A DNA stretch of 52,777 nt from Vitreoscilla sp. (GTDB lineage: Bacteria > Pseudomonadota > Gammaproteobacteria > Burkholderiales > Burkholderiaceae_C): positions 1 to 52,777 of the forward strand of contig JADMKA010000057.1 of NCBI GenBank assembly GCA_018780145.1. The letters run 5' to 3'. The notes under the pieces are model-generated. The model saw only the letters and a program-made list of their open reading frames with translations. It ran no database searches and was not told the DNA's origin. Each line of letters begins with the position of its first letter. The stretch's first letter is position 1. This document shows, piece by piece, positions 552-15,457 of the stretch. The translations under genes were made by a program, and so were the position numbers.

Positions 552-1490
552 TCACTCCCAGACGAAAGCGGTGGCGGCGTCGAACGGGTGGGTGGCCTTC
601 CAGTGGCGGGCGATGTCGACGCGCCGGGCGACCCACACCTTGTCGTGCTGCTCGACATGGTCGAGGAAGCGCTGCAGCGCGCGCAGGCGGCCGGGCCGCC
701 CCAGCAAGCGGCAGTGCATGCCCACGCTCATCATCGACGGGCGCTCGGCGCCCTCGGCGTAGAGCACGTCGAAGCTGTCGCACAGGTACTGGAAGAACTC
801 GTCGCCGTGGCTGAAACCCTGAGGCAGCGAGAAGCGCATGTCGTTGGTGTCCAGCGTGTAGGGCAACACCAGATGCGGGGCCAGCGTGCCGTCGCCACGG
901 CGCACCTGCAGCCAGAAGGGCAGGTCGTCGCCGTAGTAGTCGCTGTCGTACTCGAAGCCGCCGTGCTCGGCCACCAGGCGGCGGGTGTTGGGGCTGTCCC
1001 GGCCGGTGTACCAGCCGAGGGGCCGCTGGCCGGTCAGGCGCTCGATGATCTCCATGCCACGCTGCAGGTGCTGCCGCTCGATGCTCTCCTCGAGGTTCTG
1101 GTAGTGGATCCAGCGCCAGCCGTGGCAGGCGATCTCGTGGCCCGCTTCGACGAAGGCGGCGGTGACTTCGGGGCAGCGCTCCAGCGCCATCGCGACGCCA
1201 AACACGGTGAGCGGCAGGCCGCGCCGCTCGAACTCGCGCAGCAAGCGCCACACGCCCACGCGAGCGCCGTATTCGTAGATGCCCTCCATGCTCAGGTGCC
1301 GGGCCGGGTAGCTGGCCGGGTTGAACATCTCGGAGAGGAACTGCTCGCTGCCCGCATCCCCATGCAGCACCGAGTTCTCGCCGCCTTCTTCGTAGTTCAG
1401 CACGAACTGCAGGGCGATGCGGGCCTGGCCCGGCCATTGCGCGTGGGGCGGGTGGCGGCCGTGGCCTCTCAAGTCCCTGGGGTAGTTCAT
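552..1490 (-). CDS. puuE: Allantoinase PuuE (polysaccharide-deacetylase fold)
   Basis: A 312-residue protein of the cofactor-independent allantoinase type, which hydrolyses allantoin to allantoate in the cytoplasm and is unrelated to classical AllB amidohydrolases. Recognisable blocks are MNYPRDLRGHG at the N-terminus, FVLNYEEGGENSVLHGD, GHEIACHGWRWIHYQ (the NodB-like deacetylase core) and WYTGRDSPNTRRL. The ATG overlaps the stop of the upstream GntR gene as ATGA, so translation is probably coupled to the regulator. It directly precedes uraD, giving consecutive pathway steps. Length is normal and no lesion is seen. Confidence 0.94.
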   Translation of the reverse strand: MNYPRDLRGHGRHPPHAQWPGQARIALQFVLNYEEGGENSVLHGDAGSEQFLSEMFNPASYPARHLSMEGIYEYGARVGVWRLLREFERRGLPLTVFGVAMALERCPEVTAAFVEAGHEIACHGWRWIHYQNLEESIERQHLQRGMEIIERLTGQRPLGWYTGRDSPNTRRLVAEHGGFEYDSDYYGDDLPFWLQVRRGDGTLAPHLVLPYTLDTNDMRFSLPQGFSHGDEFFQYLCDSFDVLYAEGAERPSMMSVGMHCRLLGRPGRLRALQRFLDHVEQHDKVWVARRVDIARHWKATHPFDAATAFVWE

Positions 1491-2254
1491 GCGCGCTTCT
1501 TCTTCGGGGCGGGGGGTGGCTGCAGCACCTCGGCCAGGTCGCCGGTGCGCGGGTGCAGCCGCAGGTTGCGTTCGACATTGCCCAGGTGGCCGCTCATCAG
1601 CCGGGCCGCGGCGCGGCTGTCGCGCCGGGCCAGCGCGTCGACGATGGCCACGTGCTCGGCGTGCGAGGCCTCCGCTGAGTGGGCGGACTGCATCATCAGC
1701 GAGACCAGCGACGAACGCGAAAGCAGGTCGCCCAGCAGCTCGGCCAGAACCTCGTTGCCCAGCAGCCGGGCCAGCAGCACGTGGAAGTCGGCCAGCAGGC
1801 GGGTGCGGCCGGGCACGTCGGTGCGGGCGATGGCGGTGGCTTCGTCGGCCAGGTGGGCGCGCAGGCGGGCGAGCTGGACGTCGGTGAGGCCCTCGCACAA
1901 GCGCTTGACCAGGCCGGCCTCGATCATCGCCCGGGCCTCGAAGACCTGGCGCGCCTCCTCGGCGCTGGGCTGGCGCACGAAGGCGCCGCGGCCCGGCTCC
2001 AGCGCGACCAGGCGGTCCCGCGAGAGCTGGTTCAGCGCCTGGCGCACGATGGTGCGCGAGACCTTGAAGATGTCCGCGATGCGTTGCTCGGCCAGCTTGG
2101 TGCCGGGCATCAGGCGCCGCTCGACGATGGCCGCGCTGACCGCGTCGACGATGCGGCGCGTGGTGGTGAGGGCGTCGTCGCCACCACCGGCCGGCGGGCG
2201 AGGGCCGGCCGGCGCGGGGCGGATCACCTTCAGGCTGGGGCTGCTGCGCGGCAT
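1487..2254 (-). CDS. GntR-family (FCD type) transcriptional regulator of purine catabolism
   Basis: A 255-residue regulator with an N-terminal winged helix (about residues 25-90; IVERRLMPGTKLAEQRIADI followed by FKVSRTIVRQALNQL) and an all-helical FCD ligand-binding domain (about 95-235) containing FEARAMIEAGLV and the metal/ligand histidines typical of the fold (DFHVLLARLLGN, HAEHVAIVDAL, MSGHLGNVERNL). It ends in a basic KKKRA tail. It is the first gene of the leftward regulator-puuE-uraD unit and lies divergent to uraH-puuD. The perfect palindrome in the shared promoter region is its most likely operator. The effector is unknown; a purine breakdown intermediate such as urate or allantoin is a reasonable inference. 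Start chosen at the ATG giving MPRSSPSLK. Confidence 0.9.
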   Translation of the reverse strand: MPRSSPSLKVIRPAPAGPRPPAGGGDDALTTTRRIVDAVSAAIVERRLMPGTKLAEQRIADIFKVSRTIVRQALNQLSRDRLVALEPGRGAFVRQPSAEEARQVFEARAMIEAGLVKRLCEGLTDVQLARLRAHLADEATAIARTDVPGRTRLLADFHVLLARLLGNEVLAELLGDLLSRSSLVSLMMQSAHSAEASHAEHVAIVDALARRDSRAAARLMSGHLGNVERNLRLHPRTGDLAEVLQPPPAPKKKRA

Positions 2255-2276
2255 CGTGGTGGCTTGCGGTGTATGC

Positions 2277-2294
2277 CAAAGTGTATACACTTTG
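2277..2294. promoter_or_regulatory. Perfect 18-bp palindrome, candidate GntR operator
   Basis: CAAAGTGTATACACTTTG is fully self-complementary and AT-rich against the surrounding GC-rich DNA. It sits 23 bp upstream of the GntR start and 42 bp upstream of the uraH start, in the only intergenic space between the two divergent units. A central TGTATACA core is typical of FCD-type GntR operators. One bound dimer here could control both directions. No confident -35/-10 pair could be assigned. Confidence 0.7.
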
Positions 2295-2335
2295 ACGCCA
2301 TTGACAACCACCGCCGGCGCCCCAGCCGAACGCCC

Positions 2336-2683
2336 ATGGGCCAGCTCACCACCCACGTGCTCGACACCATGAACGGTTGCCCGGCTGCCGGCATGGCCGT
2401 CACCCTCTGGCGCGTCGGCGAGGCCTCGGCGCTGCGCAGCCTGGTGCTCAACCACGATGGCCGCGCCGACGGCCCGCTGCTGCAGGGCGAGGCGTTCACA
2501 CCGGGCCGCTACCGGTTGGTCTTCGGCGTGGCAGCCTACTTCCGCGCCCGTGGCGTGGTGCTGCCCGAGCCGCCTTTCCTGGACGAGGTGCCGCTGGATT
2601 TCGGCATCGCCGACACGGCCGCCCACTACCACGTGCCCTTGCTCGCCAGCCCCTGGGCCTACTCCACCTACCGGGGCAGTTGA
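2336..2683 (+). CDS. uraH: 5-Hydroxyisourate hydrolase (transthyretin-like)
   Basis: A 115-residue transthyretin-related protein that hydrolyses 5-hydroxyisourate to OHCU, the product of urate oxidation by the next gene. The N-terminal GQLTTHVLDT block carries the catalytic His; the middle has GRYRLVFGVAAYF; the C-terminus ends with the family tetrapeptide YRGS after HYHVPLLASPWAYST. There is no signal peptide in the chosen form, which starts at the ATG giving MGQLTTHV, so a cytoplasmic location is inferred. Its stop overlaps the puuD start (TGATG), so the two are translationally coupled. Confidence 0.95.
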   Translation: MGQLTTHVLDTMNGCPAAGMAVTLWRVGEASALRSLVLNHDGRADGPLLQGEAFTPGRYRLVFGVAAYFRARGVVLPEPPFLDEVPLDFGIADTAAHYHVPLLASPWAYSTYRGS

Positions 2684-3876
2684 TGGAGGCCTACCTGCTG
2701 GACTGGGCCAACCTGCTGCTGCGCTGGGCCCATGTGGTCACCGCCATCGCCTGGGTGGGCTCGTCGTTCTATTTCGTCTTCCTCGACTCCAGCCTGACGA
2801 AGCCCACCGATCCCGCGCTGAAGGCCCAGGGTGTCGATGGCGAGCTGTGGGCCGTGCATGGTGGCGGCTTCTACAACCCGCAGAAGTACCTCGTCGCGCC
2901 CCGCACGCTGCCGGATCACCTGCACTGGTTCTACTGGGAGAGCTACAGCACCTGGCTGACCGGCTTCGGCCTGTTCACGGTGCTGTACCTGTTCAATGCC
3001 GGCAGCTTCCTGATCGACAAGACGGTGTTCGACTGGTCCGCGCCGTCCGCCGTGGCGGTGGCGCTGGGCTTCCTGGCGGTGTTCTGGGCGGTCTACGACG
3101 GCCTGTGCCGTGTCTTCGGCCAGCGGCCGGGCGGTGACCGCATCGTCGCGGCCGGTGTGCTGGTGCTGGTGGCCGCCACCGCGTGGCTGGCCTGCCACTG
3201 GTTTGCCGGCCGCGCGGCGTTCCTGCTCACCGGTGCGGCGATCGCCACCGCGATGAGCGCCAACGTCTTCTTCTGGATCATCCCGGGACAGCGAACGGTC
3301 GTGGCGCAGATGAAGGCCGGCCAGCCGGTCGATCCGGTGCATGGCCAGCGCGCCAAGCAGCGCAGCGTCCACAACACCTACTTCACCTTGCCGGTGCTGG
3401 TGGCCATGTTGTCCAACCACTACGGCTGGCTGGTGCAGGGGCGCTTCAACTGGGTCGTTCTGCTGCTGTTGATGACCGCCGGTGCGCTGATCCGGCACGC
3501 CTTCGTCGCGCGGCATGCGTCGCTTCGGGATGGCCGGCCGGTGTCCTGGGCGGGCGCTGTCGTCGGCGTGCTGCTGCTGCTCGGTGTGGCCGTGGCGCTG
3601 GCGCCGCCGCCCTCGTCTCGCGCTGGTGCATCGGCAGAGCCGGTGCGCTTCAACCAGGTGCAGGCGGTGATCCAGCAACGCTGCGTGCTGTGCCACAACG
3701 CCGAGGTGCAGAACAAGAACGTGGCCCTGCACACCGAGGCGCTGATCCGCGGCCAGGCCCAGGCGATCCACCAGCAGGCGGTGCTCCTGAAGCTGATGCC
3801 GATGAACAACGCCACCCAGATCACCGACGACGAACGCCAGCTGCTGCGCCGCTGGTACGAGAGCGGCATGCCCTGA
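2683..3876 (+). CDS. puuD: Membrane urate hydroxylase PuuD with C-terminal cytochrome c domain
   Basis: A 397-residue membrane protein that oxidises urate to 5-hydroxyisourate and passes electrons to a cytochrome, replacing soluble urate oxidase. The first ~310 residues hold about eight hydrophobic segments with conserved blocks WAHVVTAIAWVGSSFYF, HWFYWESYSTW and HNTYFTLPVLVAMLSNHYGW. A linker follows, then a class I cytochrome c domain with haem motif CVLCH (C334, C337, H338) and a Met-rich candidate axial-ligand segment (LKLMPMNN). The fused cytochrome implies that oxidation feeds the respiratory chain and that the haem domain faces the periplasm. Start overlaps the uraH stop. A 101-bp gap with no obvious terminator separates it from the next gene. 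Confidence 0.94.
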   Translation: MEAYLLDWANLLLRWAHVVTAIAWVGSSFYFVFLDSSLTKPTDPALKAQGVDGELWAVHGGGFYNPQKYLVAPRTLPDHLHWFYWESYSTWLTGFGLFTVLYLFNAGSFLIDKTVFDWSAPSAVAVALGFLAVFWAVYDGLCRVFGQRPGGDRIVAAGVLVLVAATAWLACHWFAGRAAFLLTGAAIATAMSANVFFWIIPGQRTVVAQMKAGQPVDPVHGQRAKQRSVHNTYFTLPVLVAMLSNHYGWLVQGRFNWVVLLLLMTAGALIRHAFVARHASLRDGRPVSWAGAVVGVLLLLGVAVALAPPPSSRAGASAEPVRFNQVQAVIQQRCVLCHNAEVQNKNVALHTEALIRGQAQAIHQQAVLLKLMPMNNATQITDDERQLLRRWYESGMP

Positions 3877-3977
3877 GTGGCCTGGCGCCGGTCATCACTC
3901 ATCCTGGGGATGTCGGCGGGGTAACAAAAGGTACACGATCCTTCCTTCAGGCCCGCAAGAGGCCAAGGAGGGGTCCC

Positions 3978-6900
3978 ATGCGAGCCCGTGCGGAAACCGC
4001 ACCCGCGAAGCACCGCAGCCATCCTGGCGCGGCGTGGGCGTTGCTGTGCCTGCTGGCATCCTGCGGCGGCGGAGGCGACAGCGCCGAACCCCGTCCCAGC
4101 GCCGGAGCAGCCGGGCGCGCCCGGGTGATGGAGGCAACGCCAGCCACCGGCGAGGCGGCCACCCAGGGGGTCTTCTCGCCGCTCTACGACTGGCCGCTGA
4201 TCGCCATCCATGCGGTGCTGCTGCCCGACGGCAGGGTGCTGAGCTACGGCACCGATTCGGTCGGTACCCAGACCGGTTACTTCAGCTACGACGTCTGGGA
4301 CAGCAGCCAGGCGCCCGATGCCGGCCACCAGACCCTGCCCAACGGCAGCGGCACCGACCTGTTCTGCAGCTCCCAGCTGCTGCTGCCTGGCCCGACCGGC
4401 CCGCGCGTGATGATCGCCGGTGGCGACAACTGGACCGGCACCGCCACCGCCAACACCGGCAACACCAACGGCAACCTGTTCGATCCGGCGGACAACTCGC
4501 TGACGCGCAATGGCGACATGATCCTGCCGCGCTGGTACGCCAGCGCCACCATGCTGGTCAACGGCGAGGTGCTGGTGCAGGGCGGCTCCGGCGGCGAGGC
4601 GCACCCGGAAATCCGTGGCGTCGATGGCCGCTTCCGGCTGCTGTCGACCAACACCCAGGGGCTGGACCCCTACTACCCGCGCAACATCGTGGCGCCGGAC
4701 GGCCGGGTGTTCGGCGTGGACAGTGGCGGCAGGATGTACTACCTCGATCCGGCCACCGAGGCCTTGCAGCCCGCTGGCCAGTTCGACCTGTCCTACGGGG
4801 GGCCCGACAGCAGCGCGGTGCTGTTCCGGCCTGGCCGCCTGCTGCAGTACGGCGGCAACTCCACCGGCGCGCTGGTGATCGACATCACCGGCGGCTCGCC
4901 GGTGGTCACGCCCACGCAGTCGCTGTCGTCCCAGCGCCGCTACACCACCGGGACCGTGCTGCCCGACGGCCAGGTGCTGGCGATCGGCGGCAGCCCGGAG
5001 TGGAACGGTCTGGGCGGTGCGGCGCTCAACGCCGAGATCTGGAGCCCGCAGACAGGGCAATGGTCGATCGGCGCCAGCGGCGCGGTGGCACGCCTGTACC
5101 ACGCCACCGCCCTGCTGCTGCCGGATGCCACCGTGCTGGTCGCCGGCGGCGGCGCACCGGGCCCGCTGACCAACCTGAACGCCGAGATCTACCACCCGCC
5201 CTACCTGTTCACGCCCGAAGGCGAATGGGCCCAGCGGCCGGCCATCACGGCGGTGCCGGACGCCCTGCAGATCGGCAAGACCCTGGCCATCGACGTGCTG
5301 ACGGACTCCGCGATCTCGCGCGTCACGCTGGTCAAGACCGGCTCGGTGACCCACGGCTGGAACATGGACCAGCGTTTCATCGAGCTGCCGTTTCGCGCGG
5401 AGGACCACCGCCTCTACGTGCAGGCACCCACCCGCGCCGCCGACGCGCCGCCCGGCTACTACCAGCTCTTCGTGTTCGACGCGGCAGGCGTTCCGTCGGT
5501 GGCCCGGATCCTGGCCCAAGGCGTCGCGGCGGATCCCCAGCCCGCGGTGGTGCCCAGCCTGGCCTCGCCAGGCAGCCAGTCGTCCACGCTCGGCGACCCA
5601 GTGGAGCTGACCCTGGTGGCGCAGGACCCGAACGGCGACGTGCTGCACTTCAGCGCCGCAGGCCTGCCGCCCGGGCTGGCCGTCGATGCGGACAGCGGGG
5701 TCGTCAGCGGGGTGCCGGACACCCCCGGCCAGTACGACGTGGTGCTGGCCGTCAGCGACGGCTACAACGCCGCCTCCGTCAGCCTGGTGTGGAGCGTCAG
5801 CGGCAGCCTTCCGCTGGTGATCGATCCCTGGGCGCCGATCGCACCGGTCCAGGCGCAGGTGGCCGTCGACCTGAGCGCCAGCGCCCAGGGCGAGCAGTTG
5901 CAGTACCGCTGGAATTTCGGCGACGGCAGCCCGATGACCGACTGGTCGCCCGATCCCCATGTGTCGCACACCTTCAGCTCGGCGGGCGGTTTCCGCGTCA
6001 CCGTCACGGTGCGTGATGCCCATGGCCTGGAGCTCAGCCAGAGCTTCCTGCAGACGGTCTACCTGCCCCCGGCCGAGGGCCGGGCAGGTGCCTCCTCGCC
6101 CTTGCTGGCCGAAGCGGGCCGGCTGTGGGTGGCCAACCCCGACAACGACAGCGTCAGCGTCTTCGACACGGCGAGCCTGGCCCTTCTCGCCGAGATCCCC
6201 GTGGGCAACGCGCCGCGCACGCTGGCCCGTGCGGTCGATGGCCGGGTGTGGGTCACCAACCTGCGCGGCGACAGCCTCAGCGTGATCGATCCGTCCGCCC
6301 TGGCCGTGCTGGCCACGGTGGTCATGCCGCGCGCCAGCCAGCCGTCGGGCATCGTGATGTCGGCGAACGGTTCGACGGCGTACGTGAGCCTGGAGGCGAG
6401 CGGCGTGGTGGTGAAGCTGGACACGGCGAGCTACGCGCAGACGGGCAGCGTGGGCGTGGGCGCGAACCCGCGGCACCTGGCACTGAGCGGGGACGGGGCG
6501 ACGCTGTACGTGTCGCGCTTCATCACCCCGCCGCTGCCGGGTGAAGGCACGGTCAGCGTGGTGCCCACGCCGGCCACCGGGGGCGAGCTGGTGCTGGTGG
6601 ACACCGCCAGCTTCAGCCTGGCCAGGACCATCGTGCTGCGCCACTCCGAGCTGCCCGACTTCGAGACCCAGGGCCGGGGCATTCCCAACTACCTGGGTGC
6701 GGTGGCACTGTCGCCGGACGGCAGCCAGGCCTACGTGCCCGCCAAGCAGGACAACATCCTGCGCGGCGCCCTGCGGGATGGGCAGGCGCTGACCTTCCAG
6801 AACACCGTGCGCGCCATCAGCGCGCGCATCGAGCTGGCCAGCGGGCAGGAGGACCTGGCGGGGCGGATCGACCACGACAACGCCAGCGTGGCCAGCGCGG

Positions 6901-8828
6901 CGCTGTTCGACCCACGCGGCGTGTATTTGTTCGTGGCCCTGGAGACCAGCCGCGAAGTGGCCCTGCTGGACGCGCACTCGCGGGCGCAACTGCTGCGGGT
7001 GGACGTCGGGCGGGCCCCGCAAGGCCTGGCGCTGTCGCCCGACGGCCTGAGCCTGTATGTCAGCAACTTCATGGATCGCACGGTCAGCGTGATCGACCTG
7101 AAACCGCTGCTCGAGCGGGGCGAGCTCAACCTGCCGGTGTTCGCCACGCTGAACGCGGTGGGCACCGACAAGCTCGGCGTGCAGGTGCTGCAGGGCAAGC
7201 AGCTGTTCTACGACGCGCGCGACCCGCGGCTGGCACGCGACCGCTACCTGAGCTGCGCCAGTTGCCACCACGACGGCGCGGCCGACGGCCGGGTGTGGGA
7301 TCTTGGCGATGCCGGGGAAGGCCTGCGCAACACCGTCAACCTGCGCGGGCGCGCGGCCATGGGCCAGGGCCCGTTGCACTGGAGTGCCAACTTCGACGAA
7401 CTGCAGGACTTCGAAGGCCAGATCCGGCGCCTGGCCGGTGGCAGCGGGCTGATGAGCGACGCGGCCTATTTCGCCGGCACGCGCAGCCAGCCGCTGGGCG
7501 ATGCCAAGGCCGGGCAGAGCGCAGAGCTCGACGCGCTGGCGGCTTACGTGGCCTCGCTGAACGCCTTCGAGCCCAGCGTGAACCGGCAGCCCGACGGCGG
7601 CCTCACCGCGGCGGCCACGGCGGGCAAGGCGGTGTTCCTGGCGCACAACTGTGCGGCCTGCCACGGCGGCACGGCCTTCACCCACTCGGCCACGCTGGGG
7701 CCGGTGGACATCGGCACGCTCAAGGCCAGCAGCGGGCAGCGGCTGGGGGCGGCGCTCACCGGGCTGGACGTGCCCACGCTGAGGGACGTGGCGCGCACGG
7801 CGCCGTACCTGCACGACGGCTCGGCGGCGACGCTGGAGGCGGCGGTGGGTGCGCACCGCGGGGTCACGATGCCGGCCGCCGACCTGGGCAACCTCGTGGC
7901 CTACCTGAAGGAGATCGGCCATGAGGAGGTCTCGGCACCCGACGGCGGCGCCGCAGGCCCGGGCAGCGGGCTCACCGGGCAGTACTTCGCCAATGCGGAT
8001 CTGGCCGGCAGCCCCATCCTGCAGCGCAACGAGGCGGTGAACGTCGATTGGGGAACCGGCTCGCCCGGTGGCCTGGTGCCGGCCGACGACTTCTCGGTGC
8101 GCTGGACCGGCCAGCTGCTGCCCACCACCAGCGGGTTGCACCAGTTGCGCACGTTGTCCGACGAAGGCGTGCGGGTTCGCGTCAACGGGAGCCTGGTGAT
8201 CGACCACTGGGCCGACCACGCTCTGGCCGCCGACACTTCGGAGCCGGTGCCGTTGACGGCCGGCGTGCCGGTGGACATCGTCGTGGAGTACCGCGAGCGC
8301 CTTGGCACTGCCCAGATGCGCCTGCTGTGGTTGCCGCCGGGCATGGTGTCCCATGCCGCGGTGCCCGCGAGCCAGCTGATGCCCGCTGCGCCCGCCACCG
8401 GCACCGGCCTGGTCGGCAGCTACTTCAACAACGCCAAGCTGCAAGGCCTGCCGGTCTGGCAGCGCATGGATGTGGTTGATTTCGACTGGGGCACCGGATC
8501 GCCGGGCGCCGGCCTGAACGCCGACAAGTTTTCGGTGCGCTGGTCCGGCACGCTGGAGGCCCCGTCGACAGGCAAGTACGTGTTCCAGACCCTGTCCGAC
8601 GAGGGCGTGCGGGTCTGGGTCAACGGCAAGCGGGTGATCGACCACTGGACGGCCCATGTCTCGGCGGTCGATACCTCCAAGGCCATCGCGCTGACGGCAG
8701 GGCAGCGCTACGCTGTCCGGGTCGAGTTCTTCGACGTCAGCGGCGCGGGCCTCGTCCAGCTGCGCTGGGCCACGCCCGGCACCAGCACGCAGGTGGTGAT
8801 CCCGATCGAGCGGCTCTATCCGTTCTGA
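3978..8828 (+). CDS. Giant lipoprotein: copper-radical (galactose-oxidase-type) oxidase fused to Ig/PKD, YVTN propeller, c-type cytochrome and two PA14 domains
   Basis: A 1616-residue predicted outer-surface lipoprotein (signal segment with lipobox LASC near residue 33, RBS AAGGAGGGG). Modules in order: Kelch-like propeller and DUF1929-type C-domain of galactose/glyoxal oxidases (about 50-525), He_PIG/cadherin-like domain (526-610), PKD domain (616-688), YVTN-type propeller (708-1045), cytochrome c peroxidase/MauG-like module with two haem motifs CASCH (1093-1097) and CAACH (1225-1229) plus TAPYLHDGS, then two PA14 domains (about 1330-1473 and 1476-1616) that resemble each other. The copper-radical residues appear conserved: Cys130 (FCSS), Tyr187 (RWYAS), Tyr374-His375 (RLYHAT), His459 (VTHGWNMDQR), matching Cys228, Tyr272, Tyr495, His496 and His581 of galactose oxidase. 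Substrate unknown; PA14 suggests binding to glycans. Electron transfer from the oxidase to the cytochrome is inference. Confidence 0.88.
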   Translation: MRARAETAPAKHRSHPGAAWALLCLLASCGGGGDSAEPRPSAGAAGRARVMEATPATGEAATQGVFSPLYDWPLIAIHAVLLPDGRVLSYGTDSVGTQTGYFSYDVWDSSQAPDAGHQTLPNGSGTDLFCSSQLLLPGPTGPRVMIAGGDNWTGTATANTGNTNGNLFDPADNSLTRNGDMILPRWYASATMLVNGEVLVQGGSGGEAHPEIRGVDGRFRLLSTNTQGLDPYYPRNIVAPDGRVFGVDSGGRMYYLDPATEALQPAGQFDLSYGGPDSSAVLFRPGRLLQYGGNSTGALVIDITGGSPVVTPTQSLSSQRRYTTGTVLPDGQVLAIGGSPEWNGLGGAALNAEIWSPQTGQWSIGASGAVARLYHATALLLPDATVLVAGGGAPGPLTNLNAEIYHPPYLFTPEGEWAQRPAITAVPDALQIGKTLAIDVLTDSAISRVTLVKTGSVTHGWNMDQRFIELPFRAEDHRLYVQAPTRAADAPPGYYQLFVFDAAGVPSVARILAQGVAADPQPAVVPSLASPGSQSSTLGDPVELTLVAQDPNGDVLHFSAAGLPPGLAVDADSGVVSGVPDTPGQYDVVLAVSDGYNAASVSLVWSVSGSLPLVIDPWAPIAPVQAQVAVDLSASAQGEQLQYRWNFGDGSPMTDWSPDPHVSHTFSSAGGFRVTVTVRDAHGLELSQSFLQTVYLPPAEGRAGASSPLLAEAGRLWVANPDNDSVSVFDTASLALLAEIPVGNAPRTLARAVDGRVWVTNLRGDSLSVIDPSALAVLATVVMPRASQPSGIVMSANGSTAYVSLEASGVVVKLDTASYAQTGSVGVGANPRHLALSGDGATLYVSRFITPPLPGEGTVSVVPTPATGGELVLVDTASFSLARTIVLRHSELPDFETQGRGIPNYLGAVALSPDGSQAYVPAKQDNILRGALRDGQALTFQNTVRAISARIELASGQEDLAGRIDHDNASVASAALFDPRGVYLFVALETSREVALLDAHSRAQLLRVDVGRAPQGLALSPDGLSLYVSNFMDRTVSVIDLKPLLERGELNLPVFATLNAVGTDKLGVQVLQGKQLFYDARDPRLARDRYLSCASCHHDGAADGRVWDLGDAGEGLRNTVNLRGRAAMGQGPLHWSANFDELQDFEGQIRRLAGGSGLMSDAAYFAGTRSQPLGDAKAGQSAELDALAAYVASLNAFEPSVNRQPDGGLTAAATAGKAVFLAHNCAACHGGTAFTHSATLGPVDIGTLKASSGQRLGAALTGLDVPTLRDVARTAPYLHDGSAATLEAAVGAHRGVTMPAADLGNLVAYLKEIGHEEVSAPDGGAAGPGSGLTGQYFANADLAGSPILQRNEAVNVDWGTGSPGGLVPADDFSVRWTGQLLPTTSGLHQLRTLSDEGVRVRVNGSLVIDHWADHALAADTSEPVPLTAGVPVDIVVEYRERLGTAQMRLLWLPPGMVSHAAVPASQLMPAAPATGTGLVGSYFNNAKLQGLPVWQRMDVVDFDWGTGSPGAGLNADKFSVRWSGTLEAPSTGKYVFQTLSDEGVRVWVNGKRVIDHWTAHVSAVDTSKAIALTAGQRYAVRVEFFDVSGAGLVQLRWATPGTSTQVVIPIERLYPF

Positions 8829-10800: not shown

Positions 10801-11625
10801 TCAAGGATTCTCAGAAACTGCCAACAGTTGCGCAGCGACGGCGACAGCGATCACCCCAGGCTGCTTGCCCGAGAGGCCGGGCAACCCGATCGGGCAGGTC
10901 ATTCGCAAGAGCTGTGCCTCGCCAATGCCCCGGTCGCGAAGCCGATGCTCGAACTTCGCCCGCTTGCTGGCCGAGCCGATGAGGCCGAACCAGCCGAAGT
11001 CGCCCCGTCTCAGGATCGCTTCAGCCAGGGCGAGATCCAGCGCATGGCTGTGGGTCAGCACCAGGTAGAAATCTCCTGGCCGGCCCGCAGCCACCTCCGC
11101 CTCCACCGGCTCGGCGCACACCTGGCGAACATGGGGGGCGGCGGGCCCGTCCGGAAACTCCGCCTCGCGCTCGTCGACCCACGTGATCTCGCAGGGCACG
11201 CCGGCCAGCACGTTCACCAGCGCCCGCCCCACGTGCCCGGCACCGAACAGATGCAAGCTGAACAAGGGACGCGTGGCCGGCCAGGCCTGCACCAGCGCCG
11301 GGGTCAGGGCCTGCACGCGCAGGCTCAAGGCCCCGCCGCAGCACTGGCCCAGCGACGGGCCCAGCGCCACCGCCCAAACCAGCGGCTCGGGGTTCCAGGC
11401 AGCGAGGCGCTCGCGGGCCATCGCGATGGCCTGCAACTCCAGGTGGCCGCCGCCGATGGTGCCGGCGACACCGTGGGCGTTGACCAGCATGCGCGTGCCG
11501 GCGCCGCGCGGCACCGAACCCCGCGCCTCGACCACCTCGACCAGCATCGTCGGTGTCCCCGAGGCGAGCCACCGTGCGGCGGTATCGGGATCGGGATCCA
11601 ACGAGCCGGGGTTGTCGGGGCTCAC
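10801..11625 (-). CDS. xdhC: Xanthine dehydrogenase accessory protein XdhC
   Basis: A 274-residue maturation factor that inserts the sulfurated molybdenum cofactor into XdhB. The N-terminal XdhC/CoxI domain has the block GSVPRGAGTRMLV and GTIGGGHLELQA, and the C-terminal Rossmann-like part has HLFGAGHVGRALVNVL, LTHSHALDLALAEAIL and WFGLIGSASKRAKFEHRL. CCGG (as GQCCGGAL) carries cysteines used by the family. The start is a GTG at 11625 overlapping the xdhB stop (GTGA); earlier candidate starts lie inside xdhB. Order xdhA-xdhB-xdhC is classical. Confidence 0.94.
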   Translation of the reverse strand: MSPDNPGSLDPDPDTAARWLASGTPTMLVEVVEARGSVPRGAGTRMLVNAHGVAGTIGGGHLELQAIAMARERLAAWNPEPLVWAVALGPSLGQCCGGALSLRVQALTPALVQAWPATRPLFSLHLFGAGHVGRALVNVLAGVPCEITWVDEREAEFPDGPAAPHVRQVCAEPVEAEVAAGRPGDFYLVLTHSHALDLALAEAILRRGDFGWFGLIGSASKRAKFEHRLRDRGIGEAQLLRMTCPIGLPGLSGKQPGVIAVAVAAQLLAVSENP

Positions 11626-13958
11626 GACGACCGCACCGCGGTGACCGCACGCAGCAGCGCCTCCGGCGTGGCCGGTGCCTGCAGCGGCGGCCGGCAACCC
11701 GCGGGGCCACAAGCGGCGACCGCGTCGCGCAGTGCCAGGAACACCGAGAACGCCAGCAACAGCGGCGGTTCGCCGACCGCCTTGCTGCGGTGGATGCTGT
11801 CCTCGACGTTGTGGTTGGCGAACAGGCGGGTCGTCAACGCGTCGGGCACGTCGTTGGCGGTGGGGATCTTGTAGGTCGACGGGGCGTGGGTCAGCAGCTT
11901 GCCGGTCTGCGGATGCCAGACCAGTTCCTCACTGGTCAGCCAGCCCATCCCTTGCACGAAACCGCCCTCGATCTGGCCGATGTCGATGGCCGGGTTCAGC
12001 GAGGCCCCCACGTCGTGGAGCAGATCGGCGCGCAGCAGCTTCCACTCTCCGGTGAGGGTGTCCAGCAGCACCTCGCTGACCGCCGCGCCATAGGCAAAGT
12101 AGTAGAACGGCCGGCCCGTCAGCGTCGCGCGGTCCCAGTGCAGGCCCGGTGTGGCGTAGAAGCCTTCGGACCAGAGCTGCACGCGCGCCTGGTAGGCCTG
12201 CTGGACGAGGGTGTCGAAGGCGATGGCCGCGCCACCACCGGCCACGCGGACCTGGCCGCCCTCGAACAGGAGCGTGTCCGGCGTGGCGCCCAGCGCCGTT
12301 GAGGCCAGTTCGGCCAGCCGCGCCCGGATGCGCCGCGCTGCATCTTGCGCGGCCTTGCCGTTCAGGTCCGACCCGGTGGAGGCGGCTGTTGCCGAGGTGT
12401 TGGCGATCTTGCTGGTGTCGGTGGCGGTGCAGCGCACGCGCGCGAGTGGCAGCCCCAGCTCGTGCGCCACCACCTGGGCCACCTTGGTGTTCAGGCCCTG
12501 GCCCATCTCGGTGCCGCCGTGGTTCACAAGCACCGAGCCGTCGGTGTAGACATGCACCAGCGCACCGGCCTGGTTGAAGTGGTTGACGTTGAACGAGATG
12601 CCGAACTTCACGGGGGTCAGCGCCAGCCCCTTCTTCAACACCGGGCTGGCGGCGTTGAAGGCCGCCACGGCCGCGCGGCGTTCGGCATGGCACGCGCTGG
12701 TGTCGAGCTCGTCGACCAGCGGGGCGATGATGTTGTCGGCCACCGTCTGCAGGTAGGGCGTGACGTTGCGCTCGTGGGTGCCGTACCAGTTGGCGCGGCG
12801 CACGGCGAGCGGATCCAGGCCCCGCTGGCGGGCGATGTCGTCGAGGATCAGCTCGATGATCAGCGCCCCCTGCGGCCCGCCGAAGCCGCGGAAGGCGGTG
12901 TTGCTCTGGGTGTGGGTGCGCGGCAGGTAGCCGTGAATGGCCACCTCGGGCAGCCAGTAGGCGTTGTCCACATGGCAGATCGCCCGCGTCATCACCGGGG
13001 GCGACAGATCGGCCGAATGGCCGGCGTGGCCCAGCATGGTGAGCTCCAGGCCCAGTACCCGGCCGGCGTCGTCGAAGCCGGCCTGCCAGTCGAACTCGAA
13101 GCCATGGCGCCGGCCGGTGATCAGGAAGTCGTCGTCGCGGTCCGGGCGCAGTTTCACCGGCCGGTTCAGCGCGCGTGCCGCCAGCGCCGCCACGCAGGCG
13201 AACAGCGCGGACTGTGACTCCTTGCCGCCGAAGCCGCCGCCCATGCGCCGGCACTCGACACGCACCTCGTGCGCCGCCAGCCCCAGCGCATGCGCCACCA
13301 TCAGCTGCATCTCGCTGGGGTGCTGCGTGGAGCAGTGCACGACCAGGCCGCCGTCGTCCTGCGGCAGCGCGTACGAAATCTGCCCCTCCAGGTAGAACTG
13401 TTCCTGCCCGCCGAGCGAGAACTGGCCGCCGAGCTGGTGCGGTGCTTCGGCGATGGCGGCCGGCACGCCGCCGGGCCGCTGGCTGCGAACGAGGTGCATG
13501 GGCGGCACCACATACTCGCCGGCCGCATGCGCCTCGCGGACCGAGAGCAGGGCCGGCAGCGGTTCGAACTGCACGACCTCGCGCGCCCGGGCCGCGGCAC
13601 GGCGTGCGGCGTCGCGCGTCTCGGCCACCACCGCGAAGACCGGCTGGCCCAGGTAGCGCAGCGTGCCCTCGGCGAGGATCGGGTCGTCGTGGACGATGGG
13701 GCCGCAGTCGTTGCGGCCAGGGATGTCGCGTGCGGTGTAGACCGCCACCACGCCGGGCAGCGACTTCAGCCGCTCGATGTCGATGCCCAGCAGCCGGCCA
13801 TGCGCCACCGGCGACAGGCCGAGTGCGGCATGCAGGGTGCCGGCCAGCTCGGGCAGGTCGTCCACATACGCGGCGCGGCCGCTCACGTGCAGCTCGGCGG
13901 ATTCGTGGGGCAACGCGGCGCCCACGGTGGGGGTGGCCAGGGGAGGGGTCATGTCCAT
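11622..13958 (-). CDS. xdhB: Xanthine dehydrogenase molybdopterin-binding subunit XdhB
   Basis: A 778-residue large subunit that carries the Moco and oxidises hypoxanthine to xanthine and xanthine to urate. It starts MDMTPP and has the a/b hammerhead domain near 20-130. Cofactor and active-site motifs are intact: GGGFGGKES, FRGFGGPQG (substrate-orienting Arg), GGTEMGQGLNTKV and, near the C-terminus, KAVGEPPLLLA with the catalytic glutamate. Length agrees with bacterial XdhB. It lies 11 bp after xdhA and overlaps xdhC. A second ATG two codons in could also serve as start. Confidence 0.96.
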   Translation of the reverse strand: MDMTPPLATPTVGAALPHESAELHVSGRAAYVDDLPELAGTLHAALGLSPVAHGRLLGIDIERLKSLPGVVAVYTARDIPGRNDCGPIVHDDPILAEGTLRYLGQPVFAVVAETRDAARRAAARAREVVQFEPLPALLSVREAHAAGEYVVPPMHLVRSQRPGGVPAAIAEAPHQLGGQFSLGGQEQFYLEGQISYALPQDDGGLVVHCSTQHPSEMQLMVAHALGLAAHEVRVECRRMGGGFGGKESQSALFACVAALAARALNRPVKLRPDRDDDFLITGRRHGFEFDWQAGFDDAGRVLGLELTMLGHAGHSADLSPPVMTRAICHVDNAYWLPEVAIHGYLPRTHTQSNTAFRGFGGPQGALIIELILDDIARQRGLDPLAVRRANWYGTHERNVTPYLQTVADNIIAPLVDELDTSACHAERRAAVAAFNAASPVLKKGLALTPVKFGISFNVNHFNQAGALVHVYTDGSVLVNHGGTEMGQGLNTKVAQVVAHELGLPLARVRCTATDTSKIANTSATAASTGSDLNGKAAQDAARRIRARLAELASTALGATPDTLLFEGGQVRVAGGGAAIAFDTLVQQAYQARVQLWSEGFYATPGLHWDRATLTGRPFYYFAYGAAVSEVLLDTLTGEWKLLRADLLHDVGASLNPAIDIGQIEGGFVQGMGWLTSEELVWHPQTGKLLTHAPSTYKIPTANDVPDALTTRLFANHNVEDSIHRSKAVGEPPLLLAFSVFLALRDAVAACGPAGCRPPLQAPATPEALLRAVTAVRSS

Positions 13959-13969
13959 TGGCGGCCGCC

Positions 13970-15457
13970 TCAGGAAAAGACGCGGATCGCCGCCATCGGC
14001 AGCGGATTCGTCGGGCGGGTGGTGAGCCACAGGCGCTCCAGCAACGATGCGGCCGCCTGGCGCCGGTAGCCCGCGCTGGCGCGCAGGTCGCTGAGCGGTT
14101 GGAAGTCGGCCGACAAGGCTTGCTGGGCGGCGCGCAGCGTGGCCTCGGTCCAGGGTTGGCCGACCATGGCCGCCTCGGCGCTGGCTGCCCGCTTGACGAT
14201 GCCGGCCAGGCCGCCGAAGGCCAGCCGGGCCTCGGCCACCCGGTCGCCGTGCAGCCGCAGCGCCAAGCCGGCGCTGACCGAGGAGATGTCGCAGTCGAAG
14301 CGCTTGGAAAGCTTGTGGGCCTGCACCGCCCAGCCTGGGTCGGGCAGCGGAACGGACACGGCTTCGATGAACTCGCCGCGGGCCAGCTGGTTCTTCATGT
14401 AGTCGAGGTAGAAATCCTGCAGCGGCAACTCGCGCGTCGCGTCGCCACGCCGCAAGCTGAGCGTCGCGCCCAGCGCGATCAGCACCGGCGCGGTGTCGCC
14501 GATGGGCGAGCCGTTGGCCAGGTTGCCCACCAGGGTGCCGGCATGCCGCACCGGCGGCCCGGCGAAGCGCCGGCCCATCTCGGCCAACGAAGGCCACAGC
14601 TGCGCCAGTTCGGCCCAGCCATCCTCCAAGGTGACGGCAGCGCCGATGCGCAGCCGGCCATCGGCTTGGGTGATGCGCCGGAGCTCGGCCACGTCCCCCA
14701 GGTAGATCAGTTCACCCAGCTCACGCAGTTGCTTGGTGACCCACAGGCCGATGTCGGTGGCGCCAGCGAGCAGGCGTGCGTCGGGCTTCGCCTCGCAAAG
14801 GCCCGCCAGCGCGGCCAGGCTGTGCGGCGCATGAAAGCGGCCCGGTTCACTGATCGGGGCATCGGACTGCAGGGCCTGGAGGCGATCCGCCAGGCCATCC
14901 AGCGGCAAGCGCGGGCCCGGCGTGTCCAGCATGCGCTCGCCCGCATCGAGGATGGGCCGGTAGCCGGTGCAGCGGCAGAGGTTGCCGCTCAAGGTGTCGG
15001 CGAGTTCGGCGCGGGTCGGGCGGGTCCCGGCCTGCGCATGTCGCTCGTGGCAGGCCGCCAACGAGACGGCAAAGCCCGGCGTGCAGAAGCCGCACTGCGA
15101 GCCGTGCGTGTCCACCAGGGCACGCTGAGCCGGATGCAGGCCGCCGGCTGCCGAGAGATCCTCCACCGTCAGCAGCGCCTTGCCGTCCAGCGTGGGCAGG
15201 AAGCGGATGCAGGCATTGACCGGGCGCAGCGCCAGGCCGGCACTGCGAACGGCCTGGCTCGGCTCGGGCACATCGCGGTCCAGCTCGGCGACCAGCACGG
15301 TGCAGGCGCCGCAATCGCCTTCGGCGCAGCCCTCCTTGCTGCCGCAGGCGCGGGCATCCTCGCGCAGCCACTGCAGCACGCTGCGGGTGGGCTGGTCATT
15401 GGCCAACTCGACGGTATGGCCACGAAAGACGAAACGGATCGGGCGGCTGGCGCTCAT
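13970..15457 (-). CDS. xdhA: Xanthine dehydrogenase Fe-S/FAD subunit XdhA
   Basis: A 495-residue small subunit with a plant-type [2Fe-2S] domain (cysteines in CGSKEGCAEGDCGACTV, C44, C49 and C52, plus NACIRF), an alpha-helical second [2Fe-2S] domain (QCGFCTPGF and CRCTGYRP), and from about residue 190 a CO-dehydrogenase-type FAD-binding domain (LLAGATDIGLWV, TLVGNLANGSPIGD) with its C-terminal flavoprotein part. It passes electrons from Moco to FAD and NAD. First gene of the leftward xdhABC unit, divergent from the LysR gene across a 70-bp gap. Confidence 0.96.
   Translation of the reverse strand: MSASRPIRFVFRGHTVELANDQPTRSVLQWLREDARACGSKEGCAEGDCGACTVLVAELDRDVPEPSQAVRSAGLALRPVNACIRFLPTLDGKALLTVEDLSAAGGLHPAQRALVDTHGSQCGFCTPGFAVSLAACHERHAQAGTRPTRAELADTLSGNLCRCTGYRPILDAGERMLDTPGPRLPLDGLADRLQALQSDAPISEPGRFHAPHSLAALAGLCEAKPDARLLAGATDIGLWVTKQLRELGELIYLGDVAELRRITQADGRLRIGAAVTLEDGWAELAQLWPSLAEMGRRFAGPPVRHAGTLVGNLANGSPIGDTAPVLIALGATLSLRRGDATRELPLQDFYLDYMKNQLARGEFIEAVSVPLPDPGWAVQAHKLSKRFDCDISSVSAGLALRLHGDRVAEARLAFGGLAGIVKRAASAEAAMVGQPWTEATLRAAQQALSADFQPLSDLRASAGYRRQAAASLLERLWLTTRPTNPLPMAAIRVFS

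Follow-up and report, generated by a model that had tools for sequence, protein, structure and literature searches.

A single gene in the analysed DNA (a 52,777-nucleotide stretch of a Vitreoscilla sp. contig, hereafter the window) joins a copper-radical oxidase (CRO, AA5) to a YVTN beta-propeller and a two-haem module in one predicted lipoprotein of 1616 aa, P0001. The fusion is a real, recurring design: at 46 of the 72 loci examined, CRO, YVTN and two-haem parts share one frame and stand in this order. These 46 loci stem from 37 genomes or records (a Rubrivivax MAG may coincide with another of these), and dozens of genomes in the family to which the window belongs carry the fusion. Every module is known, but we found no description of the combination, and no report of a CRO-haem fusion, in the open-access literature searched, which agrees with an earlier sequence-only reading of this DNA that had proposed an undescribed machine. 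AA5 fusions as such are already known, since an AA5 enzyme of Burkholderia pseudomallei is reportedly fused to an inactive CE3 domain. By analogy, P0001 may best be read as a one-chain version of two-protein pairs (fungal Perox-AlcOx; Streptomyces GlxA-Sco-DtpA), in which the haems would serve the copper site. To our knowledge, natural CRO activation or peroxide removal has been seen in few cases and with separate partner proteins. With a CRO and a two-haem partner in one chain, activation and the fate of the peroxide could both be tested on a single purified protein, and the design may show how CROs get switched on or rid of peroxide. The fusion also ties a hydrazine-synthase-like propeller/haem unit, otherwise associated with anammox, to a definite oxidase.

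Domain layout and conserved residues

The gene occupies 3978–8828 of the forward strand without interruption. Its open frame spans 3138 to 8828, the start is the ATG at 3978 with AAGGAGG just 5' of it, and 45 further loci have the same part order. All features below lie on the forward strand, with domain borders taken partly from Pfam and phmmer and partly set by hand. A signal peptide with the lipobox LLAS-Cys29 (LLASC; 3978–4064) is followed by the CRO domain (aa 58–515; 4149–5522), a putative Ig domain, He_PIG (aa 524–608; 5547–5801; Pfam match 526–607, E 3.5e-13), and a PKD domain (aa 619–700; 5832–6077; Pfam match 623–691, E 1.8e-16). The hydrazine synthase beta-like YVTN propeller (aa 705–1050; 6090–7127) scored 88.7 with TIGR02276 over four stretches (cut-off 27.85). 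Next come the two-haem module (aa 1060–1322; 7155–7943), supported by Pfam, alignments and motif counts, and two PA14 domains at aa 1329–1468 (7962–8381) and aa 1473–1616 (8394–8825). Pfam matches above cut-offs were GO-like_E_set, He_PIG, PKD, CCP_MauG, Cytochrom_C and PA14. Pfam, TIGR02276 and the motif count thus confirm what the sequence-only reading had listed for this lipoprotein (CRO, YVTN propeller, two CxxCH haem motifs and two PA14 domains), to which He_PIG and PKD are additions. P0001 is lipid-anchored according to its predicted lipoprotein signal, the surface position in the sequence-only reading being a putative one, and a lipobox pattern N-terminal of the CRO was found in 41 of 45 fused ORFs (CRO score > 300).

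The PA14 pair matched Pfam PA14 at 202 bits against a cut-off of 24 (two stretches, E 5e-60). By phmmer, aa 1329–1613 matched the PA14 pair of RsgI3 (6qe7; E 1.3e-48), and the second domain matched 6qdi (E 8.8e-51). The PA14 domains had been counted as part of the machine; two are indeed present in the window, but they are optional elsewhere, with none at 25, one at 10 and two at 11 of the 46 fused loci. Because of this, the core architecture is CRO, PKD, YVTN and two haems. Carbohydrate-binding-type modules differ among the relatives (PA14, Malectin, Ricin-type, LamG). The lipid anchor, the PA14 pair and the varied lectin-like domains of the relatives point to a polymer as the predicted target of P0001.

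The CRO domain shows the expected kelch-type propeller with a galactose-oxidase early set: phmmer aligned aa 58–511 to the bacterial galactose oxidase 9g8h (E 4e-41), and GO-like_E_set matched aa 420–511 (E 4.4e-22). Glyoxal_oxid_N fell just below its cut-off (37.3 vs 37.5), the Kelch models also stayed below theirs, and the GlxA model NF052501 reached 143.9 bits against a cut-off of 800. Cys130, Tyr187, Tyr374, His375 and His459 align to the Cys, Tyr, Tyr, His and His of 9g8h that we take to be its copper/radical ligands. These five were identical in all 49 CRO domains of at least ~400 aa from the surveyed loci (45 fused and 4 unfused, the window's included), which argues that the oxidase has been kept functional wherever it is fused. 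The five residues named in the sequence-only reading are therefore all in place, and its proviso that the N-terminal propeller might lack a copper site is answered by the presence of all copper ligands. Residue 186, the neighbour of the crosslink Tyr, is more variable in the same domains (Trp 26, Gly 16, Ala 6, Tyr 1), and Gly205 of P0001 presumably stands where fungal galactose oxidase has its stacking Trp. The Tyr-Cys crosslink, bound copper and oxidase activity of P0001 are predicted from these residues. Domain models built from two-row alignments (window and the Rubrivivax locus L013) were poor (mean pLDDT 55.5 and 49.9); the top 27 Foldseek hits of the low-confidence CRO-domain model were copper-radical oxidases, which adds little weight beyond sequence.

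In the two-haem module, Pfam placed CCP_MauG at 1073–1142 and Cytochrom_C at 1214–1275, both above cut-offs. P0001 has exactly two CxxCH motifs, CASCH 1093–1097 and CAACH 1225–1229. Their residues were kept in 73 or 74 of 74 haem-module rows, which count the window twice (one row is gapped at Cys1096–His1097), and His1134, Trp1135 and His1279 were kept in all 74. The nearest solved structure in profile searches was the gamma subunit of hydrazine synthase (5c2v_C; E 2.1e-23), which scored better than a cytochrome c peroxidase (E 7.7e-21). In di-haem peroxidases and MauG, the conserved Trp is followed by Gln at +10, Pro at +14 and Glu at +20. None of these was found at the corresponding ungapped positions counted from Trp1135 in 72 of 72 modules, which instead hold Phe (72/72), Ile, Met or Leu (67, 4 and 1) and Gly (72/72). 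Glu, Asp and Glu are invariant at +6, +9 and +11, and an acid shifted in this way could stand in for the peroxidase residues. A separate MauG-like two-haem protein of the same genome (L157; G000:C233:43687-44208) has the usual Gln, Pro and Glu and a Tyr at the ligand position. By its residues, the haem module of P0001 is a member of the di-haem (MauG/CCP) superfamily but no standard peroxidase, because it lacks the Gln, Pro and Glu that the genome's MauG-like protein has.

MauG and the di-haem peroxidases place a Met or Tyr ligand 14 residues past the His of a YxHDG motif. His1293 takes this place in the window; among 71 scored modules the residue is His in 49, Gly in 13, Ala in 6, Gln in 2 and Thr in 1. 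The His1293 column held His in 31 of 31 rows of alignment A2, a hand-chosen part of the survey set, in some rows via an insertion. We read the C-terminal haem as probably bis-His on the strength of these residues. The corresponding His of hydrazine synthase, which we take to be its ligand His332, sits at the same place. The order of YVTN propeller and two haems is likewise that of hydrazine synthase beta-gamma, and the second-haem His is aligned, with ligation a sequence-based prediction. Hydrazine synthase beta and beta-gamma models matched the propeller region of P0001 below cut-offs (94.6 bits vs 1250 for the beta-gamma model NF052342). The earlier label "CCP/MauG-like" thus stands for the superfamily and needs correcting in detail: the nearest relative is hydrazine synthase gamma, and the module follows a propeller, has a probable bis-His haem and is without the canonical peroxidase residues. 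A rubber-oxygenase (RoxA) reading was also considered and set aside in favour of a shared di-haem motif. The RoxA-like Pfam model (cut-off 26.7) scored 15.5 on P0001, 26.2 on its paralogue P0002 and 25.1 on L152, and exceeded the cut-off in 6 of 20 CRO-less relatives (L122, L124, L139, L140, L141 and L145).

Recurrence and history of the fusion

Whole-protein searches covered overlapping samples of 16 genomes from the genus, 399 from the family, 300 from the order, 369 from the class and 398 from the phylum. In all but the genus sample the best two candidates per genome were scored, so that the counts are lower bounds. The 72 loci comprise the 69 haem-module matches listed, the window, P0002 and L013 (a contig of a Rubrivivax sp. 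MAG). The fusion was present in 4 of 16 genomes of the genus sample (G000, G010, G011, G015). With the genomes of the wider samples sorted by the search in which they came up, it was present in at least 31 of 399 of the family, at least 1 of 300 further ones of the order, at least 2 of 369 of the class and at least 1 of 398 of the phylum. More than one fusion was carried by 9 of the 37 genomes or records. The window's genome is among them, as P0002 (1300 aa, 52% identical, without PA14) is also fused and lies on another contig. The proposed search for other proteins with this domain architecture hence revealed a recurrent CRO-haem fusion.

The 45 other fused loci and the paralogue on a different contig exclude both a chance arrangement and an assembly error. 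We found nothing in the window itself in favour of an assembly error or an accidental joining of two genes, the outcome against which the sequence-only reading had cautioned; among the relatives, L106, L116, L121 and L137 look frame-broken. The same architecture in 37 genomes or records and in the paralogue refutes this explanation, which is almost certainly wrong. Two of the 46 fusions have one part incomplete in frame and the remainder in an overlapping frame (L116, with 83 aa of the CRO; L121, with 78 aa of the haem module).

The remaining 26 loci lie outside the fused set. Both halves are present in overlapping frames at L106 and L137, a contig end truncates L123, and the haem half stands by itself at three loci (L142–L144). 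Twenty have another N-terminal part; all 20 of these carry a Big_5 Ig domain, and 12 have LVIVD propeller repeats above cut-off. This CRO-less YVTN-two-haem set consists of L122, L124–L135, L139–L141, L145 and L149–L151; Ricin-type lectin domains occur in 9 and LamG in 10 of its 20 members. The haem unit is therefore not dedicated to CROs. Equally, CROs need no fused haem unit as such, since CRO-only genes exist, three of them in the window's genome (G000:C199, C123, C33), where five CRO genes were found altogether.

These unfused forms bear on the possibility that P0001 holds two independent enzymes, a CRO that oxidises a polymer and a haem module that reacts separately on the same target or with general peroxide, with no inter-domain electron transfer. 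The occurrence of the haem unit with other N-terminal parts (20/72) or alone (3/72), the CRO-only genes and the varying binding-type modules (PA14, Malectin, Ricin-type, LamG) would all fit such an arrangement. It is set against the CRO-YVTN-haem order, which is constant in 46 of 46 fused loci, and against the trees described below, which fit a long partnership without proving it. We consider two independent enzymes rather unlikely.

Three relatives depart from the simple layout. L091:7379-15082 is a 2568-aa frame in which an Ig-PKD-YVTN-two-haem-PA14 block occurs twice, with near-equal scores, after a single CRO; the doubling is either a genuine duplication or an assembly artefact. At L089:3179-13042 there are three consecutive CRO genes (CRO alone, CRO with two PA14, and a fusion without PA14). 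L152:1245-10802 encodes 3186 aa with five Malectin stretches, PA14, CRO, an extra kelch propeller, YVTN and two haems, and has no lipobox pattern N-terminal of the CRO.

In the CRO tree, the CRO domains of the fusions fell into three groups. The galactose-oxidase-like group A has a main part of 22 rows (100/100), to which four long sequences of other orders within the class are weakly joined. Group B (100/100) has 9 rows, with P0002 and one CRO-only protein. Group C (15 rows, 100/100) includes the window, and 12 CRO-only proteins are adjacent to it. The haem modules of the fusions share one branch (99/98) with L116 and three haem-only proteins. In the haem-module tree, too, C forms a single clade (100/98). 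A first haem-module tree had grouped an A-type with a B-type protein and suggested domain swapping, i.e., exchange of CROs between haem modules. The idea was dropped, as AU tests, for which the set was reduced to 49 rows, left a single clade unrejected for type A (21 rows, p 0.627; the four rows from other orders of the class left out) and likewise for type B with its 8 rows (p 0.632). An ancient fusion, followed by joint divergence and some later splits, is a possible history of these sequences, and repeated joining of CRO and haem unit is a possible alternative. Three genomes (G417, G547, G699) encode the haem module and the CRO as separate genes at separate loci, each with a lipobox, and the separate CRO is sister to clade C.

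Gene neighbourhood and candidate functions

An SCO1/SenC-like copper-chaperone gene accompanies 23 of 35 loci of clades A (16/27) and B (7/8), the eighth clade-B locus being cut by a contig end. In these counts, made with clade lists set in this analysis, A takes in L116 and L137, and B takes in L106. No such neighbour was found at the 13 loci of clade C, the window's clade (9 with full flanks), and one was found at 1 of 24 CRO-less loci (L123, itself truncated). All 24 SCO1/SenC-like neighbours have CxxxC, and all four that were scanned with Pfam scored above the SCO1-SenC cut-off. Chance adjacency of the SCO gene to P0002 is very unlikely because the window's genome has just three SCO1/SenC-like genes, one of which adjoins P0002. 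A small gene with a single CxNCH (16/16; monohaem cytochrome c) was found at 16 of 27 clade-A loci, at a distance of up to ~1.5 kb, but at no locus of clade B (0/8) or clade C (0/13) and at none of the loci without a CRO. Of two such genes scanned, that of L109 scored above the Pfam Cytochrom_C cut-off and that of L117 had no match. A search of the window's genome, run without a positive control, detected no homologue of the clade-A cytochrome c.

The P0001 gene begins 101 bp after a gene whose membrane-protein product ends in a cytochrome c part, had no NCBIfam hit and in our judgement resembles urate hydroxylase PuuD. The surrounding genes (window 552–3876 and 10801–15457) belong to purine catabolism (PuuE, an allantoinase; hydroxyisourate hydrolase; XdhA/B/C). 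We treated an operon with purine catabolism as incidental, the shared neighbours listed for clade-C relatives being other genes. Some of these relatives (L084, L085) have another shared neighbour, uvrA-like by eye.

Our first choice, which we hold tentatively, is a glycan-binding, lipid-anchored CRO with its own redox partner that would consume its peroxide and keep its radical poised. The PA14 pair would tether the protein to a polysaccharide, an alcohol or aldehyde group of which the AA5 domain would oxidise at the Cys130–Tyr187/Cu site, in all likelihood with O2 reduced to H2O2. The oxidase part would first be loaded with copper, for the supply of which the sister lineages have an SCO gene. 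The PKD-YVTN-two-haem unit would dock on the AA5 domain, and the two would exchange oxidising equivalents; H2O2 would be taken up by the open N-terminal haem, and the probable bis-His C-terminal haem would trade electrons with a periplasmic cytochrome c. The net effect would be a Tyr-Cys radical held active and peroxide removed. For P0001 itself we infer copper and haem loading, haem ligation, glycan binding and the substrate, as well as the flow of electrons or peroxide between its domains and the direction of that flow.

The first choice is supported by the one-frame, fixed-order fusion at 46 of 72 loci, by the copper/radical residues (49/49) and by the retention of both CxxCH motifs and Trp1135. 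The SCO neighbours in clades A and B, the cytochrome c neighbours in clade A, the split halves with lipoboxes in three genomes, and the precedents of the fungal peroxidase-CRO pair, GlxA-Sco-DtpA and hydrazine synthase also argue for it. It is weakened by the CRO-less relatives of the haem unit (20/72), by the CRO-only genes, by clade C, which has neither SCO nor cytochrome c neighbours (0/13), and by the clade-A cytochrome c not being found in the window's genome. Peroxide chemistry at the open haem is in turn weakened because the canonical peroxidase residues are replaced in 72 of 72 modules. The sequence-only reading had offered electron export or local peroxide removal; these are not the sole options, and radical activation is the one with the best experimental precedent.

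Electron export would make the haems a drain through which the reduced copper site loses its electrons to cytochrome c; P0001 would then be a respiration-wired dehydrogenase that makes little or no H2O2. A probable bis-His haem like that of hydrazine synthase gamma, the cytochrome c gene that neighbours 16 of 27 clade-A loci and the missing canonical peroxidase residues are consistent with this. We know of no copper-radical oxidase with a natural acceptor other than O2, and this counts against a drain, as does the absence of the cytochrome c neighbour from clades B (0/8) and C (0/13); on balance we regard it as unlikely. Its fuller form is doubtful and a shade less probable: a copper-radical enzyme wired to its own haems, and in a sister lineage also to a cytochrome c dedicated to it, would send electrons from an extracellular polysaccharide into the respiratory chain and not to O2. 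If true, such wiring would make P0001-type enzymes the first copper-radical dehydrogenases.

The SCO neighbours, which indicate maturation, and the place of the haem module in the MauG superfamily could also be taken to mean that the module acts in the manner of MauG, making or repairing the Tyr-Cys crosslink or radical during biogenesis and not during turnover. The GlxA study describes a requirement for DtpA in GlxA maturation at scarce copper; it also describes purified apo-GlxA that forms its crosslink with copper alone, and Streptomyces mutants that are rescued by copper (PMC4736821). A free-standing helper would moreover suffice for maturation, with no need of a fusion. Such a role for the haem module is improbable.

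Comparison with known systems

The best matches to the CRO domain, by sequence and Foldseek, are the bacterial galactose oxidases 9g8h and 9g43 (9g43 from Pseudoarthrobacter siccitolerans), which have the same five residues but no match to the haem module of P0001. For the PA14 domains the tandem pair of RsgI3 of Clostridium thermocellum (6qe7) is among the closest solved likenesses. RsgI3 is a sensor and no enzyme, and the pectin binding reported for its pair is its own, the ligand of the P0001 pair being predicted (PMC4711584).

MauG and the bacterial di-haem cytochrome c peroxidases share with P0001 two c-type haems, a conserved Trp and a YxHDG-type motif. They differ in the open-haem Gln, Pro and Glu, which are missing at the ungapped positions in all 72 modules, and in the Met or Tyr ligand, which is His in P0001. 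The role of the conserved Trp in di-haem enzymes is described in PMC12758564. Hydrazine synthase beta-gamma and its fused homologues have, like P0001, a seven-bladed propeller with a two-haem module (PMC12758564, PMC12607021). Where hydrazine synthase has gamma-His144, P0001 has Trp1135, a position that we derived from the text of PMC12758564; according to the same paper, the wider homologues of clades I–III also have Trp there. The bis-His gamma-II haem has been proposed to pass electrons from cytochrome c to the open haem (PMC12607021). The word "galactose" occurs 0 times in PMC12758564.

Streptomyces GlxA resembles P0001 in being a membrane-attached CRO. According to PMC4736821, GlxA maturation at scarce copper needs Sco and the haem peroxidase DtpA, which was proposed to remove the H2O2 of GlxA; this dependence on a Sco chaperone and a haem peroxidase is a property of GlxA. 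GlxA, Sco and DtpA are all separate proteins, the peroxidase is of the DyP type, and P0001 scored far below the GlxA model cut-off.

The tandem Perox-AlcOx of Colletotrichum and Magnaporthe likewise pairs a CRO with a haem protein. As reported in PMC9770985, CROs may rest in an inactive Cu(II) state that horseradish peroxidase activates in vitro; in the fungal pair the CRO is activated by its haem peroxidase, which also lowers the Cu(II) EPR signal of the CRO. The fungal system consists of two separate secreted proteins acting on long-chain and aromatic alcohols, and has a class II haem peroxidase in place of a two-haem c-type cytochrome. Activation by one-electron oxidation belongs to that fungal pair, and the same paper indicates that a dedicated CRO-activating partner need not be an efficient peroxidase (PMC9770985).
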